From the NCBI GenBank assembly GCA_964019135.1, contig OZ025252.1, positions 3,488,823 through 3,552,822 on the forward strand: a stretch of 64,000 nt of DNA, read 5' to 3'. Positions 1 through 59,847 of this stretch are shown here, piece by piece. Within the stretch, counting starts at the first letter, position 1. Every line of letters begins with the position of its first letter. Source of the stretch: Arenicola marina (taxonomy: Eukaryota > Annelida > Polychaeta > Arenicolidae). A program made the position numbers and the translations under genes. The notes beneath the pieces were generated by a model, which was not told the origin of the DNA, ran no database searches, and was given only the letters and a program-made list of their open reading frames with translations.

Positions 1-397
1 ATTCGGGGCTAAAAACGTTGACGGCATTGTGTGAGAGGTACTTCTATCTTTCCTGTATAGTATACAGTATAGTAGTTACCACACAGAATGCTAAACATCT
101 GAGAACGAAACGAGTATTTTCAATATGTTTAAATCAGGTCCCAAATATTCGGCCATCTTCTGTGTCGCTGGCCGTATTACCACTAGTCTTCTTTGTTCGC
201 CAGACTCAAGGAAACAGCTATCGGTCGAGTTTACCGCACTACGCGGGGGAATCTTTCTTTCCCAATACCAAGGTAGCGTCACCAACTGCACTGCATTCAA
301 CCCGTCCCCTCCAAGAACGGCAACGTCACTCTAGGACTTACTCCCAAGACAACAATTTCTTCTCTTCACTCCATTCAATTTGAGTGTCCCTGGCGGA
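1..397. other. Unique sequence, no gene recognised
   Basis: No repeat, RNA gene or convincing exon is seen. A 121-codon open stretch on the plus strand has no recognisable domain and its composition looks like chance open frame. Confidence 0.5.
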
Positions 398-500
398 GTC
401 ACCCCCTCCCTCCATCCCTGCCCCCGACCCCGGCCCCGCCACCCCCTATCTCCACCCCACCAACAGACATCTCCCCCCCCCCTCCCCCTTCCACCTATCC
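398..500. repeat. C-rich low-complexity tract
   Basis: The plus strand is almost wholly C with scattered T and A, including runs of eight or more C. Such pyrimidine tracts recur about every 2-4 kb in the window and produce short proline-rich or glycine-rich open frames that are not genes. Confidence 0.85.
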
Positions 501-559
501 GCACCAAGCTGCCCATCCCAGGACGCTTCCGTTTCCCTTAAGAGATAATTCAGTTACCT

Positions 560-660
560 TATACTGCCGCCATTTTCCCTCTGGCCCGCAGACAATGCAA
601 TGCGACGCTCTTATTGGTCGGTTTTAATATGGGCCGTCGTAAAAAAAAGGACCAACTCTC
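560..660 (-). promoter_or_regulatory. Candidate minus-strand promoter: CCAAT box and YY1-type initiator
   Basis: Read on the minus strand, a CCAAT box (complement of ATTGG at 613-617) is followed about 40 bases later by AAAATGGCGGC (complement near 567-577), the consensus used by YY1 at many animal promoters and translation starts. Soon after comes a possible splice donor (GTATAAG or GGTAACT), so a tiny first exon is possible. If translation began at the ATG, a stop follows within five codons unless splicing intervenes. No downstream exon is recognised. The promoter role is inference from motifs only. Confidence 0.3.
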
Positions 661-1030
661 ATTATAGTCTGTGTCTCGCCGTAGATGAGTATGATGGGGA
701 CGCGTGAGGCGGGGCACATGGCGGGTTTTATTCACGGCGTGGGGTGTGACCTCTGTCCCACGGCGCCGAGACCTGGGACACACGTAATGCGACATGCGGG
801 AAAATGCAGCAGAAATACGGGAGAACACATCAGTAGAGCAATCCACACAAAAAAAATCATAAAAAAATCACACAGAAAGAGAGAGCAGGATCTCTTCTGG
901 GTGCCAATATTTAATCAGACATTGCAATCACAAGTTTAGATTGACGGAAGAAGATACAAATTAAAGATACATCAAATGAAAGTGTGTTTTGTTCATGTAA
1001 TATTGTGATATAAGGGTTGTAGGGCCTCTA
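661..1030. other. Unique sequence, no gene recognised
   Basis: Mixed-composition sequence with short A runs near 850-870. No domain-bearing open frame and no repeat is visible. Confidence 0.5.
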
Positions 1031-1823
1031 ATGCCATCAGTGGTGAGCCCTCTTCAAACTAAACAAACACAAATGCAATCCAGTATCTCTGTTTACACTC
1101 TCCAATGCAATCAGTGGTGAGTTATTTTCAAGCGATTACAATCCAATATCTATTGTTACATTCTCCAATGCAATCAGTGGTGAGTTATTTTCAAGCGATT
1201 ACAATCCAATATCTATCCTTACATTCTCCAATGCAATCAGTGGTGAGTTCTTTTCAAGCGATTGCAATCCAATATCTATTGTTACATTCTCCAATGCAAT
1301 CAGTGGTGAGTTATCCTCAAGCTATTGCAATCCAATATATATGTTTACAGTCTCCAATGCAATCAGTGTATTCCCTCCTCAAACGATTTCAATCCAATAT
1401 CTATTGTTACATTATCTAATGCAATCAGTGGTGAGTTATTTTCAAGCGATTACAATCCAATATCTATTGTTGCATTCTCCAATGCAATCAGTGGTGAGTT
1501 ATTTTCAAGCGATTGCAATCCAATATCTATTGTAACATTCTCCAATGCAATCAGTGGTGAGTTATCCTCAAGCTATTGCAATCCAATATATATGTTTACA
1601 GTCTCCAATGCAATCAGTGTATTCCCTCCTCAAACGATTTCAATCCAATATCTATTGTTACATTATCTAATGCAATCAGTGGTGTTATGCTCAAGCTATT
1701 GCAATCGAAATTCGATGTTTGCATTCTCCAGTGCAATCAATGTAAGCGATCCTCGATCCAAATCTCCAATGGAATCAGAGGTGAGTTCTTCTTAATTTAT
1801 TACAATCCAACATATATATTTAA
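1031..1823. repeat. Minisatellite, 63-bp unit
   Basis: About twelve units, each marked by CAATGCAATCAGTGGTGAG followed by a CAATCCAATATCTATTG-like half. The period of 63 bases is a multiple of three, so several frames stay open and show a 21-residue peptide repeat; I see no sign that this is translated. A block of four units beginning near 1310 recurs 251 bp later near 1561, so the array has grown partly by multi-unit duplication. A further partial unit lies at 2347-2402, beyond an inserted MITE. Confidence 0.95.
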
Positions 1824-2346
1824 ACAGTTAGTGCCACGCCAAAACAACTTTAGCTCATATTAGTCTTCTTTGCTTCCACGCTTATATTATCGAGCTATAA
1901 CGCCCCAAATAGTAGAAGGCAATACTTTTTCCACTTGTTTTCGCACATGCCGATTTAAATTCTGGGAGTGAGGAAAGTGACGTCAAAGGGAAATACACAC
2001 GCATGTGTTTTTACATTGAGACTCAGATTCGCTCTGCTGATTGGCTTGAACTCAACGAAAATCACTCAACCATGTGAACAATACACGCCCTCGAAAACAG
2101 ATGCCTACGCGCTGCATCAAAGCCCACCTGTCAATCTTGACGTCATTGAGGAATTTCTAAATAACGCTCAGATACAATGCTTCCAGAATTAAACCCGCCG
2201 GACCTCACTTTTGCTACTTCGACGAACGCGTTTACAGTGATATCGTAGAAAAAGAACTGTAAACTCCCACTAAAACAAATTCTTATTTGTTTGTCTTCCC
2301 TAAACAAAGTTAACTCTGAACTAAACAAAATCGTGGCACAAACACT
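1824..2346 (+). mobile_element. TTAA-flanked MITE, copy 1
   Basis: A 523-bp element with terminal inverted repeats of about 15 bases: ACAGTTAGTGCCACG at the left and the complement of AGTGTTTGTGCCACG at the right. TTAA lies directly outside both ends (1820-1823 and 2347-2350), the target duplication typical of piggyBac-type transposons. It shares most of its length with copies at 6522-7240 and, inverted, 59106-59632. It lies inside the 63-bp minisatellite, whose units continue on both sides, so it arrived after the array formed. A 61-codon minus frame is shared with the 59-kb copy, but amino-acid identity there is lower than nucleotide identity, so I do not call it a gene. No transposase is present. 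Confidence 0.85.
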
Positions 2347-2402
2347 TTAAACACTCTAAAGCAATCAGAGGCGAGCTCTCCTCAAATTATTGCAACCAAA
2401 TA
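2347..2402. repeat. Detached unit of the 63-bp minisatellite
   Basis: AAGCAATCAGAGGCGAG followed by CAAATTATTGCAACC matches one diverged unit of the array ending at 1823. The MITE between them explains the separation. Confidence 0.75.
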
Positions 2403-2410
2403 TGGTAAGG

Positions 2411-2506
2411 AGAATGCCCATGTAACAGTACATTCTTGAAAAAGAATGTACGAGGCGCAAGCCGAGTACATATCTTTTCAAGAATGAACTGTTACACGGG
2501 TATTCT
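2411..2506. repeat. Long near-perfect hairpin (41-bp arms)
   Basis: Arms 2411-2451 and 2466-2506 are inverted repeats matching at about 35 of 41 positions, with a 14-base loop. Within the left arm GTACATTCTT (2428-2437) and AAGAATGTAC (2442-2451) form a second, nested 10-bp stem. This may be a fold-back MITE or a structured-RNA source. A related 24-base palindrome occurs at 3320-3343. Confidence 0.8.
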
Positions 2507-3319
2507 CTGACTTAAAGTACGGTCGGTGAGCCTCACGTGGTCCATGAAGCGTGGTGAAGAGTTCTTTTAAGATGTACATTGCATCTCTCGCATCCGAAAC
2601 CAATAAAATAGTTGACTGAAATCCGTTCATATTCTAAACTTGAGTCATACGTGAGCTAAGCTGAAACAGTGGTTCGCCCTGACATGGAAGAACGTCGGAC
2701 GCTGCAGCCACAAGTAAGTTTAGTTCATCTTCAGATTGTAAGAATGAATTCGTGTTTCGCATCAAGAAGCGTAGGCCACTTCGCATGGATTATGTGTCAT
2801 TATACAGACGATAATGGTTCTTTGAATGTGGAATATGATACAATCGTTCAAATTATTGGATACTGAAAGGATGTGATACGCAGCGATGTTGCCATGGTGT
2901 TTGAAACAAGTAAAACTCAGTGCGTTGTTGATGACTAGGATACGCTTTGCAAACGAGTTTCGTGGGATTCACGAGAAAGAATAATGATTTCAAGTGTGGT
3001 CATAGGATATAAGCAAATGTCGGTATGTATTTTGCATATGAATTACATATGATCTCAAATTCAGTTTTTAAAGTGGATTTTGTGATCTATTCTTGTTTTG
3101 ATGAGAAATTTGTATCTGTTTTTGCTGGGGCTTTCCATCGAGCGTCAAGTTTCCAGTTCATCACCCATTGTGGTTGTGACGTGTTTCAGACAAGCTCACT
3201 TATTGCTCATGATTGCCATTGACTGCGATGGTCGATTTCGTAACGGAAGGACAATTGTTCAACAGAAACATTGTTTGGTCTCCTTGAGTCAATCGCTAAT
3301 TAATCAGCTCGCTAAAACC
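2507..3319. other. Unique sequence between hairpin and minisatellite
   Basis: AT-rich sequence with no recognised gene. It is bounded by similar GTACATTC-type palindromes (2428-2451 and 3320-3343) and may be the body of a non-autonomous element, but no target duplication was found. Confidence 0.35.
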
Positions 3320-3343
3320 GTACATTCGTGAAAATTAATGTAC
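3320..3343. repeat. 24-base palindrome related to hairpin at 2428
   Basis: GTACATT (3320-3326) pairs with AATGTAC (3337-3343). The 24 bases match the left-arm palindrome at 2428-2451 at about 20 positions. Confidence 0.6.
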
Positions 3344-3349
3344 AATTTA

Positions 3350-5487
3350 CGCGGCCAGGCTTGGCTGGGTCACTGGTAATAGAGGCCTAGACGGACCGGA
3401 TCTTTCGCCGGTGCGCGCGGCCAGGCTTGGCTGGGTCGCTGGTGGTAGAGGCCTCGACGGACCGGATCTTACGCCGATCAGCGCGGCCAGGTTTGGCAGG
3501 ATCTTACGCCGGTCAGCGCGGCCAGGCTTGGCTGGGTCGCTGGTGGTAGAGGCCTAGACGGACCGGATCTTACGCCGGTCAGCGCGGCCAGGCTTGGCTG
3601 GGTCGCTGGTGGTAGAGGCCTAGACGGACCGGATCTTACGCCGGTCAGCGCGGCCAGGCTTGGCTGGGTCGCTGGTGGTAGAGGCCTAGACGGACCGGAT
3701 CTTACGCCGGTCAGCGCGGCCAGGCTTGGCTGGGTCGCTGGTGGTAGAGGCCTCGACGGACCGGATCTTACGCCGGTCAGCGCGGCCAGGCTTGGCTGGG
3801 TCGCTGGTGGTAGAGGCCAAGACGTACCGGATCTTACGCCGGTCAGCGCGGCCAGGCTTGGCTGGGTCGCTGGTGGTAGAGGCCTAGACGGACCGGATCT
3901 TACGCCGGTCAGCGCGGCAAAGGCTTGGCTGGGTCGCTGGTGGTAGAGGCCTAGACGGACCGGATCTTACGCCGGTGAGCGCGGCTAGGCTTGGCTGGGT
4001 CGCTGGTGGTAGAGGCCTCGACGGACCGGATCTTACGCCGGTGAGCGCGGCCAGGCTTGGCTGGGTCGCTGGTGGTAGAGGCCTAGACGGACCGGATCTT
4101 ACGCCGGTCAGCGCGGCCAGGCTTGGCTGGGTCGCTGATGGTAGAGGCCTCGACGGACCGGATCTTACGCCGGTGAGCGCGGCCAGGCTTGGCTGGGTCG
4201 CTGATGGTAGAGGCCTCGACGGACCGGATCTTACGCCGGTGAGCGCGGCCAGGCTTGGCTGGGTTGCTGGTGGTAGAGGCCTAGACGGACCGGATCTTAC
4301 GCCGGTGAGCGCGGCCAGGCTTGGCTGGGTCGCTGGTGGTAGAGGCCTAGACGGACCGGATCTTACGCCGGTCAGCGCGGCCAGGCTTGGCTGGGTCGCT
4401 GGTGGTAGACGCCTAGACGTACCGGAACTTACGCCGATCAGCGCGACCAGGCTTGGCTGGGTCGCTGGTGGTAGAGGCCTAGACGGACCGGATCTTACGC
4501 CGGTCAGCGCAGCAAAGGCTTGGCTGGGTCGCTGGTGGTAGAGGCCTAGACGGACCGGATCTTACGCCGGTGAGCGCGGCCAGGCTTGGCTGGGTCGCTG
4601 GTGGTAGAGGCCTAGACGGACCGGATCTTACGCCGGTGAGCGCGGCCAGGATTGGCTGGGTCGCTAGTGGTAGAGGCCTAGACGGACCGGATCTTACGTC
4701 GGTCAGCGCGGCCAGGCTTGGCTGGGTCGCTGATGGTAGAGGCCTCGACGGACCGGATCTTACGCCGGTGAGCGCGGCCAGGCTTGGCTGGGTTGCTGGT
4801 GGTAGACGCCTAGACGTACCGAAACTTACGCCGGTCAGCGCGACCAGGCTTGGCTGGGTCGCTGGTGGTAGAGGCCTAGACGGACCGGATCTTACGCCGG
4901 TCAGCGCAGCAAAGGCTTGGCTGGGTCGCTGGTGGTAGAGGCCTAGACGGACCGGATCTTACGCCGGTCAGCGCGGCCAGGCTTGGCTGGGTCGCTGGTG
5001 GTAGAGGCCTAGACGGACCGGATCTTACGCCGGTGAGCGCGGCCAGGCTTGGCTGGGTCGCTGGTGGTAGAGGCCTAGACGGACCGGATCTTACGCCGGT
5101 GAGCGCGGCCAGGATTGGCTGGGTCGCTAGTGGTAGAGGCCTAGACGGACCGGATCTTACGTCGGTCAGCGCGGCCAGGCTTGGCTGGGTCGCTGATGGT
5201 AGAGGCCTCGACGGACCGGATCTTACGCCGGTGAGCGCGGCCAGGCTTGGCTGGGTCGCTGATGGTAGAGGCCTCGACGGACCGGATCTTACGCCGGTGA
5301 GCGCGGCCAGGCTTGGCTGGGTCGCTGGTGGTAGAGGCCTAGACGGACCGGATCTTACGCCGGTGAGCGCGGCCAGGATTGGCTGGGTCGCTGATGGTAG
5401 AGGCCTCGACGGACCGGATCTTACGCCGGTGAGCGCGGCCAGGATTGGCTGGGTCGCTGGTGGTAGAGGCCTCGACGGACCGGACCG
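3350..5487. repeat. Minisatellite, 66-bp unit
   Basis: About 32 units marked by GCGGCCAGGCTTGGCTGGGT, a StuI-type AGGCCT and GACGGACCGGATCTTACGCC. Because 66 is a multiple of three, both strands show 22-residue peptide repeats in long open frames; these are repeat products. Variant units (with TACCGGAACTT or AGCAAAGG) recur about 397 bp apart, and another (CAGGATTGG) recurs 463 bp apart, each six or seven units plus one base, showing block duplication. Degenerate remnants run on to about 5560. Confidence 0.97.
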
Positions 5488-6521
5488 AGCGGGGCTGTAC
5501 AGGGACTGGTCGAGCAGGGTTGGGTTGGGCCGTAGATAGCTTGGTCGAGCTGGGCTGGGTGCTGCGGAGGTCTGGGACAGCCAGTTCCTCGCGTGACAGC
5601 CCATCTCCGCCCTTATTGCGTTAATATTAGACGGGTTAAGGCTATTAGCCGGTATAAGGTCAGACCCTTCAACACGACGCCGACAATTAGCCGAGGGCTG
5701 CTTGAGAAGGCATGCAGGCCAACCAACCCAGCGACAAACGATGGCCATACAATGAAAGCCGTGTCCCCTCGCCCCATACCCCTCTCCGTCACCCCCCCCC
5801 CCCTCCATGACCCCCGCTTTCACATCCTCGATGATCCAAATTACAAGACTCCCGAATTCCCTGGAGCCGTGCCCCGCCAGAAATTGCCACCAAAAGACGA
5901 AGAGCTAAAGCGTTTAAGTGCCCTTTAAAGGCGTGTCCAAGAACCCCATTTTGAAGATGGCGTGACTTGGCAGGGACAGCTGGTTGCCCCCCCGCCCCCT
6001 CCCCATCCCTGCCCGCCCCGCCCCCCACACCCGAAGTCCCCTAGCGACGTAAAAAGATGGCTTAACAGAATTACCCGTTTTTTGCGGAATTAGTACATTA
6101 TTATACAGAAGCGTGGCTGTTGTATTAATAAACAAGTTATTAAAGGCCATTGTTTGGCGATATATAGCCGTTCAGGCTGAAAGGACCGTTAAGTTTCAAT
6201 CATATCAAAAAAGCCATTGCACCGATAGGTAGCGCCCCCATCGGCAGGTCGGTGTACTAGCCAGACAGCCCAACTTGAACAGGCAATCTACTTTACTAGA
6301 CGGCGCCCCGAGGAATAACACCAGCTCCCTAACGATGAATCTCATAAGGTCCTAAATGCATAGGATAATATGGCGTTTCGGGCACAGAATAACCAGGAAA
6401 AATTACAGGCAAACACGTATTTCTCATACGTATCTGCGAATTACTCAGTATTGCAGCCTTAACCGTTCTTCCACGAACACTTGTAGTATGCACACTTGGG
6501 TATACAGGGCTAACCCATTAA
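5488..6521. other. Intergenic sequence with C-rich tracts
   Basis: Contains C runs near 5790-5815 and 5985-6030, a GAAGATGGCGTGAC motif near 5953 (YY1-like) and a possible CTCF-like site near 6231. No exon can be supported. Confidence 0.45.
6231..6248 (-). promoter_or_regulatory. CTCF-like motif (weak)
   Basis: AGCGCCCCCATCGGCAGG reads on the minus strand as a GATGGGGGCGCT core, close to the CTCF consensus but with a mismatched 5' CCA block. Motif-only evidence. Confidence 0.25.
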
Positions 6522-7240
6522 ACAGTTGGTGCCACGCCCAAACCAAATTTAGCCCATAGGATCCTTCTGTGTTTACTCCCTTATGGTCATTTTGAGTTAC
6601 ATTACATTTACATTGGAGTTATAGCGCCTCAAACGGTGGGAGGAAATAATTGTTCCACTCATTTTCGCACCTACCAATTTAAAATCCGGGAGCCAGGAAC
6701 ATTTTGTCAAAGAGGAATACAAACGCATGTGCTTTTGGGACTACTGACATTCGGACACAGATTCTCTCTTCTCATTAGCTTGAACTCTTGAACGAAAAGC
6801 ACTCAACCATGAGGACAATACACGCCCTCGACAAAAGATGCCTACGCTCTGCATTAACGCTCACCTGTCAATCTTGTGACATCATTGGGGAATTTCTAAA
6901 TTGGCGTTCAGACGCAATACCCCCGCCTCGATAGCTCAGTGGGTTAGAGCGCTGGCATTCAGCGTCTGACCTGAAAGCCTAACGGCATGTGGGTTGTGGG
7001 TTCGAGCCCCCGCTGTGCAATCACAGGATACGGATCACATGTCCTTCATCGCAAGAAAGTAGGGGCTTCGCAGGGGACATGGCTCCACTCTCCCTTCTTT
7101 CTCCCATTGACGCGATATGACCAAAAGTGGTTAAAACGTCTTGAATATGTAACCAACCAACCCAGAGATACACCCGCCGGACCACAGTTTTGTTGATCTG
7201 TTGAACTGTAGACAGTAGGACACCTCGTGGCACCAACACA
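6522..7240 (+). mobile_element. TTAA-flanked MITE, copy 2, carrying a nested SINE
   Basis: Same family as copy 1. The ends are the clearest in the family: GTTGGTGCCACG near 6525 and its exact complement CGTGGCACCAAC near 7227. TTAA (6518-6521) flanks the left end and TTAT (7241-7244), one change from TTAA, the right. Without the SINE at about 6925-7160 it is roughly 480 bp; a stretch of about 90 bp present in copy 1 near the right end is missing. Orientation matches copy 1. Confidence 0.85.
6925..7160 (+). mobile_element. tRNA-derived SINE inserted in the MITE
   Basis: Begins with a tRNA-like head: the A box TAGCTCAGTGGGTTAGAGCG (6932-6951) and the B box GGTTCGAGCCC (near 7000), spaced as in a polymerase III promoter. 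A non-tRNA body follows, ending in an AACC-type tail (7151-7160). Homology to the other MITE copies stops at its left edge and resumes with CCCGCCGGACC on its right, which defines the insertion. Target duplication is short or ambiguous (CCC). A plain tRNA gene is less likely because acceptor pairing is poor and the unit continues about 140 bp past the B box. Confidence 0.75.
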
Positions 7241-7256
7241 TTATGACCATTAATTA

Positions 7257-9029
7257 AGATAATGGCAACTCACTATGAATATCAGCGTATACAGAGACCA
7301 TGGCAATAACTCATAAAAGACATCAGGGTAAACAGAGACCATGGCAATAACTCATAAAAGACATCGGCGCTTACGGAGACCATGGTAATAACTCACGAAA
7401 GACATCGGCGCATACAGAGATCATGGCAATAACTCACGAAAGACATCGGCGCATACAGAGACCATGGCAATAACTCATAAAAGACATCAGGGTAAACAGA
7501 GACCATGGCAATAACTCATAAAAGACATCGGCGCATACAGAGACCATGGCAATAACTCATAAAAGACATCGGCGCTTACGGAGACCATGGTAATAACTCA
7601 CGAAAGACATCGGCGCATACAGAGATCATGGCAATAACTCACGAAAGACATCGGCGCATACAGAGACCATGGCAATAACTCATAAAAGACATCAGGGTAA
7701 ACAGAGACCATGGCAATAACTCACGAAAGATATCGGCGCATACAGAGACCATGGCAGTAACTCACGAAAGACATCGGCGCATACAGAGACCATGGCAGTA
7801 ACTCACGAAAGACATCGGCGCATACAGAGACCATGGCAATAACTCACGAAAGACATCGGCGCATACAGAGACCATGGCAATAACTCACGAAAGACATCGG
7901 CGCATACAGAGACCATGGCAATAACTCACGAAAGACATCGGCGCATACAGAGACCATGGCAATAACTCACGAAAGACATCGGCGCATACAAAGACCATGG
8001 CAATAACTCACGAAAGACATCGGCGCATACAGAGACCATGGCAATAACTCATAAAAGACATCAGGGTAAACAGAGACCATGGCAATAACTCATAAAAGAC
8101 ATCGGCGCATACAGAGACCATGGCAATAACTCATAAAAGACATCGGCGCATACAGAGACCATGGCAATAACTCATAAAAGACATCGGCGCTTACGGAGAC
8201 CATGGTAATAACTCACGAAAGACATCGGCGCATACAGAGATCATGGCAATAACTCACGAAAGACATCGGCGCATACAGAGACCATGGCAATAACTCATAA
8301 AAGACATCAGGGTAAACAGAGACCATGGCAATAACTCACGAAAGATATCGGCGCATACAGAGACCATGGCAGTAACTCACGAAAGACATCGGCGCATACA
8401 GAGACCATGGCAGTAACTCACGAAAGACATCGGCGCATACAGAGACCATGGCAATAACTCACGAAAGACATCGGCGCATACAGAGACCATGGCAATAACT
8501 CACGAAAGACATCGGCGCATACAGAGACCATGGCAATAACTCACGAAACACATCGGCGCATACAGAGACCATGGCAATAACTCACGAAAGACATCGGCGC
8601 ATACAAAGACCATGGCAATAACTCACGAAAGACATCGGCGCATACAGAGACCATGGCAATAACTCATGAAAGACATCGGCGCATATAGAGATCATGGCAA
8701 TAACTCATAAAAGACATCAGGGCTCAAAGAGACCATGGCAATAACTCACGAAAGACATCGGCGCATACAGAGACCATGGCAATAACTTATGAAAGACATC
8801 GGCGCATACAGAGACCATGGTAATAACTCACGAAAGACATCGGCGCATACAGAGATCATGGCAATAACTCATGAAAGACATCGGCGCATACAGAGACCAT
8901 GGCAATAACTCATGAAAGACATCGGCGCATACGGAGACCATGGCAATAACTCACCAAATACTTCTGGGTAAACAGAGGCCATGGCAGTAACTCACCAATG
9001 ACATACACGCATACAGAGACCATTGACAG
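7257..9029. repeat. Minisatellite, 41-bp unit with CCATGG core
   Basis: About 43 units, marked by ACATCGGCGCATACAGAGAC, then CATGGCAATAACTCACGAAAG. Variants include a CAGGGTAAAC form and a CGGCGCTTACGGAG form. Rare markers recur exactly 615 bp apart (GATATCGG at 7729 and 8344; ACAAAGACC near 7990 and 8605), so a block of 15 units was duplicated. The period is not a multiple of three and the frames are closed. Confidence 0.97.
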
Positions 9030-33344: not shown

Positions 33345-33545
33345 CCACGGGGGGGTGGGGGTAGGGGGGCTTAAACCCCCCTGAAGCAAGGGGATGTTAA
33401 AGACTGTTAAACGCGATTTTTTCTAATGACCCCTTTTTGAGGAAGAATGCCGTTTTTCCATGCATAATCAAGGCCATATGATCCTCCCCAACCAGTCATT
33501 TTAAAGTAGGTGACAGTCCCCCCCCCCACCCCCCCCCCCCCCTCC
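33345..33545 (+). mobile_element. GGGGCGGATCTAG-family MITE, partial copy B (empty site)
   Basis: GGGGCTTAAACCCCCCTGAA, GCAAGGGGATGTTAAAGACTG, and the following block with CTAATGACCCC, TTTTTGAGGAAGAATGCCG and AAGGCCATATGATC align in order with the copy at 58904-59847. Its left third and right end are not recognisable. Where the 59-kb copy carries the 527-bp TTAA element, this copy reads GATGTTAAAG without interruption, so it preserves the pre-insertion site. Confidence 0.65.
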
Positions 33546-58903: not shown

Positions 58904-59847
58904 CAGGGGCGGATCTAGGTGGGGGGGAGGGGTTGCACCATCCCTCCCCCCCGCCCTATTCGAGAATTTCAGCACAGACTGTAAAGGTCTGGCTATCCGA
59001 CGACATACATCGCAAAGCGACATTTTGTAGATGCAACCAAGTGGCGGATCTAAGGGCGGGGGGGAGGGGGGGTTAAACCCACCCCGACAAGCAAGGGGAT
59101 GTTAAGAACTGTTGAAGCCACGATTTTGTTCAGCTCAGGGTGCACTTTGGTTAGGGAAGACAAACAAGTAAGAATTAGTTTTAATGGGAGTGTACAGTTT
59201 TTATTCCACGATATCACCATAAACGCGTTCGTCAAAGTAGCGAGAGTGAGGTCCGGCGGGTTTAATTCTGGGAGCATTGCATCTGAGCGTTATTTTGAAA
59301 TTCCCCAAAGATGTCACATGATTGATAGGTGAGCTTTGATGCATTGCGTAGGCATCTGTTGTCGAGGGCGTGTATTGTTCTCATGATTGAGTGCTTTTCG
59401 TCGAGTTCAAGCCAACGAGCAGAGATAATTTAAGTCTCAATCTAAGAGCACATGCGTTTGTATTCGCCTTTGACGTCACTTTCCTCACTCCCAGAATTTA
59501 AATCGGCATGTGCGAAAACCAGCGGAAAAAGTATTCCCTTCTACTATTTGGGGCGTTATATCTCGATAATATAAGCGTGGAAACACCGAAGATTAATATG
59601 AGCTCAAGTTTTTTTGGCGTGGCCTCAACTGTTTAAAGTCGCCATTTTTTCAATGACCCTTATTAAGGAAAAAAAACCGTTTTTCTCCACAAAAGGCCAT
59701 CGGAGGAAGCAACCCCTCTCCCCACCGGTTGTCAAAAAAAGTACCTGCGGTCATTGTCACTCCCTCCCTCGGTCGCGAGTTTTTAGAGAGCAGAGCCCCC
59801 CCCCCCCCCCACCGGGGTCGCATTTCTAAGTTCCTAGATCCACCCCC
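58904..59847 (+). mobile_element. GGGGCGGATCTAG-ended MITE, copy C, split by a TTAA MITE
   Basis: Left end CAGGGGCGGATCTAGG (58904) and right end CCTAGATCCACCCC (near 59833-59846) form an inverted pair. CGTAT occurs just outside both ends, a possible target duplication. A second internal GTGGCGGATCTAAGGGCGGG near 59041 marks a sub-structure also seen in copy A (GGCGGATCCAAG). Without the insertion at 59106-59632 it is about 410 bp. No open frame of its own. Confidence 0.75.
59106..59632 (-). mobile_element. TTAA-flanked MITE, copy 3, nested in another MITE
   Basis: A 527-bp inverted copy of the element at 1824-2346. TTAA flanks both ends (59102-59105 and 59633-59636). The host sequence on either side, GATGTTAA and TTAAAG, joins exactly to the uninterrupted GATGTTAAAG of the 33-kb relative, so the insertion and its TTAA duplication can be read directly. 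Confidence 0.88.

Follow-up and report, generated by a model that had tools for sequence, protein, structure and literature searches.

The insert near 59 kb of the window, by which we mean the whole stretch of 64,000 nucleotides analysed (C5:3488823-3552822 of the 867-Mb genome of Arenicola marina), is a real non-autonomous DNA transposon of an ordinary kind, a MITE of approximately 525 bp, and the TTAA MITE family to which it belongs is an added example of an already known element type. Copies of the element, their ends, their TTAA flanks and one filled site comparable with 21 empty relatives were directly observed. The reading we prefer, with a rough probability of 0.6, is that this TTAA-inserting MITE was mobilized in trans by a transposase of the Kolobok superfamily and landed in the second TTAA of a host repeat. 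A transposase encoded elsewhere in the genome would have recognized the 15 bp ends of the MITE and inserted the element at TTAA sites, so that TTAA came to stand on both sides; the 59-kb copy would have entered an older interspersed repeat at the second TTAA of the latter, and since then the copy would have been shortened by 8 bp at its left end and its left TTAA changed to TTGA. We infer a Kolobok-superfamily enzyme because, according to the literature, TTAA in combination with AG...CT ends is characteristic of Kolobok.

The insert was found to be repeated in the genome, as an initial search yielded 2480 candidates and all 40 of those scored were matches. Most aligned copies have AGTGTTCGTGCCACG as one of their 15 bp termini and ACAGTTGGTGCCACG, read on the minus strand, as the opposite one. 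Genome-wide, and with flanks disregarded, there were 1133 exact matches to AGTGTTCGTGCCACG (588 + 545) versus 322 to ACAGTTGGTGCCACG (160 + 162), the AG type thus being the commoner end, and TTAA lay directly outside 895 (467 + 428) and 216 (108 + 108) of these, respectively. Reversed patterns, used as controls for the end searches, gave 0, 0, 1 and 0 matches. These counts lend strong genome-wide support to the earlier note, in which the insert had been described as a TTAA-flanked MITE. The element is short, occurs in many copies and has inverted ends, as befits a MITE, and a lack of genes would follow from its size.

TTAA flanks were also counted in copies picked by similarity of the element body alone (loci L001-L028), where 29 rows were reduced to 27 full-length copies of distinct flanks by exclusion of L006, one end of which was unmatched, and L021, which had a duplicate flank. 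TTAA was present on both sides in 16 of the 27 and on at least one side in 25. Identical four-mers were seen on both flanks of 17 copies, one of them (L022) with TGAA on either side, so that four bases are duplicated at a site other than TTAA. A wider set comprised 36 full-length copies that were in part picked by TTAA; here, both flanks were exactly TTAA in 23 and within one mismatch of it in 33, as against 0 exact and 9 within one mismatch among 1152 outward-shifted control flanks. Pairwise flank identity in these 36 copies was 0.75-1.0 in the TTAA columns and fell to 0.24-0.33 just outside. The 59-kb copy, positioned by its end motif in either set, was scored on its left side (AAGA) as a miss. 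For the family, homology did not continue past the TTAA sites nor was TTAA absent, decay being confined to a minority of copies.

The 36 copies measured 489-534 bp, lengths being fixed by the end motif, with 15-bp ends. In this set, which represents the sub-family of the window, the left end began with AG in 31 copies and the right end with AC in 27, and many of the end pairs listed genome-wide had AG at both ends, ∼500-540 bp apart. For 27 aligned copies, consisting of the copy at 1824 and 26 from L001-L028 (one of the two copies of L008 missing), the mean pairwise divergence was 10.8% (range 2.5-15.9%), and most copies are therefore not recent. TTGA as left duplicate combined with TTAA on the right was noticed in L004, L018, L020, L055, L006 and the window copy (59112-59115), which may be due to chance; L006 and the window copy are additionally shortened by 6-8 bp at the left. 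The mirror change on the right duplicate (TCAA) was seen in one case among the copies examined.

Alignment of the 59-kb insert with two further stretches of the window confirmed both as sister copies, each in minus orientation. The second copy, of 523 bp (1824..2346), is flanked by TTAA at 1820-1823 and 2347-2350 and is 88% identical to the 59-kb copy over 516 bp. The third (6522..7240, 719 bp) lies between TTAA (6518-6521) and TTAT (7241-7244), is 77-79% identical over 286-309 bp and carries a foreign insert at ∼6915-7165. This insert, which reads GATAGCTCAGTGGGTTAGAGCGCTGG ... GGGTTCGAGCC, resembles a tRNA-derived SINE; Rfam and ARAGORN returned no match anywhere in the window, including 6915-7165. 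A scan of positions 1-8000 showed tandem arrays at 1074-1739, 3499-5484 and 7281-8000 with units of 63, 66 and 41 bp, respectively, and the second copy adjoins the 63-bp array. When its flanks were joined they aligned to array units that read TTAC or TAAC where TTAA would be expected, which is compatible with insertion into an array unit; the units are not an exact empty site, and the comparison is a weaker one.

The DNA interrupted at 59 kb is itself repetitive. The left part of this host repeat, beginning with GGGGCGGATCTAG, extends over 58906..59111 and its right part, ending with CTAGATCCACCCC, over 59633..59846, both on the plus strand, and an uninterrupted relative is present at 33.4 kb of the window. 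What the earlier note called the 'GGGGCGGATCTAG element' is this host repeat and is distinct from the MITE. The GGGGCGGATCTAG motif was only modestly over chance in the window, with six occurrences at up to two mismatches versus 1.79 expected, a number reached in one of 100 shuffles. A genome search for the host repeat gave 740 candidates. Forty of them were scored, and 20 of the 40 were inspected as empty sites; together with the 33.4-kb copy these 20 form a set of 21 uninterrupted copies, whose majority sequence is GATGTTAAGGACTGTTAAAnTCGAA.

The filled site reads GATGTTAAGAACTG-TTGA-AGCCACG ... CAACTGT-TTAA-AGTCGCC. Since the majority of the 21 empty copies reads GATGTTAAGGACTGTTAAAnTCGAA, GATGTTAAGAACTG (through 59111) is most likely host DNA, with TTGA at 59112-59115 as the left duplicate, a decayed TTAA, and the element beginning at 59116. 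The right duplicate is TTAA at 59633..59636. On comparison with the empty site, a target-site duplication is thus evident, albeit with its left duplicate decayed to TTGA. In the uninterrupted copy at 33.4 kb the TTAA equivalent to the target would be that at 33407..33410, so that insertion most likely took place 10 bp beyond the TTAA chosen earlier (33397-33400), and TTAAGAACTG (59102..59111), the first four bases of which had been read as the left TTAA, would belong to the host repeat and not to the element. With the second TTAA as the target, the element would therefore comprise 59116..59632, in plus orientation (AG-type end first) and 517 bp long at present, as placed by alignment and by the empty-site comparison; its left end, AGCCACG, corresponds to AGTGTTCGTGCCACG minus 8 bp, and the opposite end of the element, on the minus strand, is ACAGTTGAGGCCACG.

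The join at the second TTAA scored higher than that at the first at all 21 empty sites, with means of 45.0 and 34.9, or 31.8 and 21.5 when only the region near the joint was compared, the second-TTAA join being in both comparisons longer by the ten disputed bases. An ungapped check of the five bases past the right TTAA was less uniform than the joins: the second TTAA was better at 16 of 21 sites and the first at two, with three ties, and on average 3.52 and 2.00 of the five bases matched after the second and the first TTAA, respectively. Hence, of the proposal that a filled and an empty target site occur within one window, the insert, the TTAA at 59633-59636 and the empty relative at 33.4 kb held, but the register was most likely 10 bp off, and GATG-TTAA (59102-59105) was not upheld as the exact target. 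That the earlier register is nevertheless correct appears very improbable. A literal TTAA does exist at 59102-59105, and ACTGTTGAAGCCACG, which follows it, if taken as element, agrees with the two family ends in 11 and 12 of 15 positions; however, apart from the scores at the joint, host DNA seems to run on through GAACTG, which fits the host at a mean of 4.24 of six bases in the 21 empty sites and is identical in one of the relatives (L100), and such a register would require two surplus bases before the end as well as the loss of ∼10 host bases.

As regards the transposase, the earlier note pointed to a piggyBac-like mobilizer, which our data do not support, as the MITE ends agree neither with the motif given in the literature nor with those found at piggyBac loci in this genome. 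piggyBac ends carry CC[C/T]T according to the excerpted text of PMC2872659, a motif missing from the MITE ends, which begin with AG or AC. The genome contains 50 matches to piggyBac transposases, and 30 of these, from ∼22 distinct places, were read with 1.5-kb flanks, which may not always reach the ends. At five of 12 loci tested a TTAA-flanked end pair was identified, in each case with CCCATT or CTCATT at the start, which differs from the MITE, and none was identified at the other seven. No MITE-like end (up to three mismatches) was found beside TTAA at any of the 30 matches, and none among these was a piggyBac relative with the ends of the MITE. A piggyBac derivative moved by a piggyBac transposase is thus improbable, even though the TTAA duplication, a hallmark of piggyBac, is present in the family and transposase matches exist in the genome. 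As CCCATT and CTCATT likewise do not strictly conform to CC[C/T]T, the missing motif is weaker evidence against piggyBac, and the initial AG or AC instead of C, the five differing end pairs and the 30 matches read are the points that speak against it.

Kolobok elements follow the rule of 5'-RR..YY-3' termini with TTAA, as given in excerpts from PMC9587614 and PMC6004289. The TTAA duplication is a feature common to piggyBac and Kolobok, and the commoner AG end of the MITE agrees with RR...YY, whereas the AC right end of the window sub-family (27/36) departs from it. Kolobok therefore fits the commoner end better than piggyBac does, and on the basis of these termini is the more likely, though unproven, identity of the mobilizer. 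Several Kolobok-related domains were detected in the genome: 150 THAP matches among 682 candidates were scored, a domain that occurs outside Kolobok too, alongside 66 matches to the KolX-like domain and 30 to PF20700. Several of the latter lie beside His-Me endonuclease matches (18 in the genome), a co-location suggesting that PF20700 marks a Kolobok transposase. At L115, L116 and sister places with equal scores, THAP is followed ∼5-10 kb on by a KolX-like domain on the opposite strand. A KolobokP-like tandem array (C5:3298539-3311968) is situated ∼180 kb before the window, with units ∼4 kb apart, transposase-like and His-Me endonuclease matches and, between two units, a 443-bp stretch TTAA-GGTTACACACCAAT...-TTAA with inverted ends, an arrangement resembling the published KolobokP one. 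The same GGTTACACACCAAT end beside TTAA recurs at L117 on C4, where identical direct repeats 4099 bp apart are cut by the ends of the fetched stretch. The KolobokP-like loci L117 and L118 differ from the MITE in their ends and resemble it in no meaningful way, and none of the Kolobok-like loci read combined MITE ends with a transposase-bearing element.

Among the loci and listed ends examined, an autonomous element with the MITE ends was found neither for piggyBac nor for Kolobok. Co-location was assessed on C1-C7 for 264 ends taken from search listings of the first 100 places each (covering C1 to C7 for right-type and C1 to C2 for left-type ends). Within 15 kb of THAP there were only two complete short copies, on C1 and 1.4-11 kb away, and near KolX only one separate short copy, on C3 and ∼5 kb from a KolX fragment; no listed PF20700 or PF05551 match had any of the 264 ends at a distance of up to 15 kb, and no end pair among them enclosed a transposase match. 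The two C1 copies lie with two THAP matches at C1:24972777-24995197; their ends are exact but absent from the listed ends with exact TTAA outside.

Individual loci were rejected as partners as follows. L089 (C1:8057200-8064880), with exact ends 7.6 kb apart, is a palindromic stretch in which the two inverted MITE ends have mirrored flanks and minisatellite on both sides, and no transposase was recognized by eye in its frames. The direct pair at L090, 3.1 kb apart, consists of two independent copies that are ∼80% alike and have different flanks, and at L114 the exact end near a KolX fragment is that of a separate short copy. The left flanks of the two THAP and KolX copies (L115 and L116) share only 161 bp, with a boundary that lacks TTAA, and the PF20700/PF05551 elements are KolobokP-like with other ends. 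From the loci with an exact end and an unlike interior, 10 of 38 listed open frames were compared with Pfam, and none reached the curated cut-off, one match being at chance level.

In addition to piggyBac, further origins have to be weighed against the Kolobok reading. Sola3 also targets TTAA, and there is a minor but real chance that this or another TTAA-targeting superfamily, or an undescribed transposase, moved the MITE. The unlike ends (AG left, AC right), the conflict of AC with the RR rule of Kolobok and the failure to find a partner argue in this direction, but the commoner end is AG and many listed pairs are AG/AG at ∼500-540 bp. A family with genuinely unlike AG/AC ends, moved by a Kolobok lineage or by an undescribed transposase and with the MITE as its sole visible trace, seems doubtful. 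Less probable again is that the MITE represents the solo terminal repeat of a composite element of KolobokP type and not a deletion product: its ∼525 bp, its short ends of its own and TTAA recall the solo LTDRs of ∼450 or 660 bp in the excerpted text of PMC9587614, and KolobokP-like elements do occur in the same genome, but copies bordering an internal region were not seen, the sole direct pair inspected (L090) is not an LTDR pair and the KolobokP-like ends read in the genome differ from those of the MITE.

Neither the two MITE ends (minus the first base) nor GGGGCGGATCTAG were found in the text of the papers examined, a result of little weight because sequences are rarely given in the main text. 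With this element, one more TTAA MITE family is available in which a filled site and many empty relatives can be compared. It also cautions that TTAA alone is not diagnostic of piggyBac, as Kolobok leaves the same duplicate, and that with one empty site alone, rather than several, the target may be placed at a neighbouring TTAA by mistake. Going by the excerpts of the respective sources, three known systems invite comparison. The Kolobok-type T2-MITE of Xenopus (PMC6004289) is likewise short and non-autonomous with a TTAA target and AG termini, but has another end sequence, and Xenopus possesses identified Kolobok transposases, in contrast to A. marina, where the partner was not found. KolobokP solo LTDRs (PMC9587614) share with the MITE a size of ∼0.45-0.66 kb, short inverted ends, TTAA and, as regards its commoner end, RR..YY; they differ in having a composite parent, which was not seen here, and the KolobokP-like ends of this genome read GGTTACACACCAAT. 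The piggyBac-type CMITEs of corals (PMC2872659) carry CC[C/T]T at their ends, unlike the A. marina family, yet resemble it in their TTAA duplicates and in a published pair of filled and empty sites.
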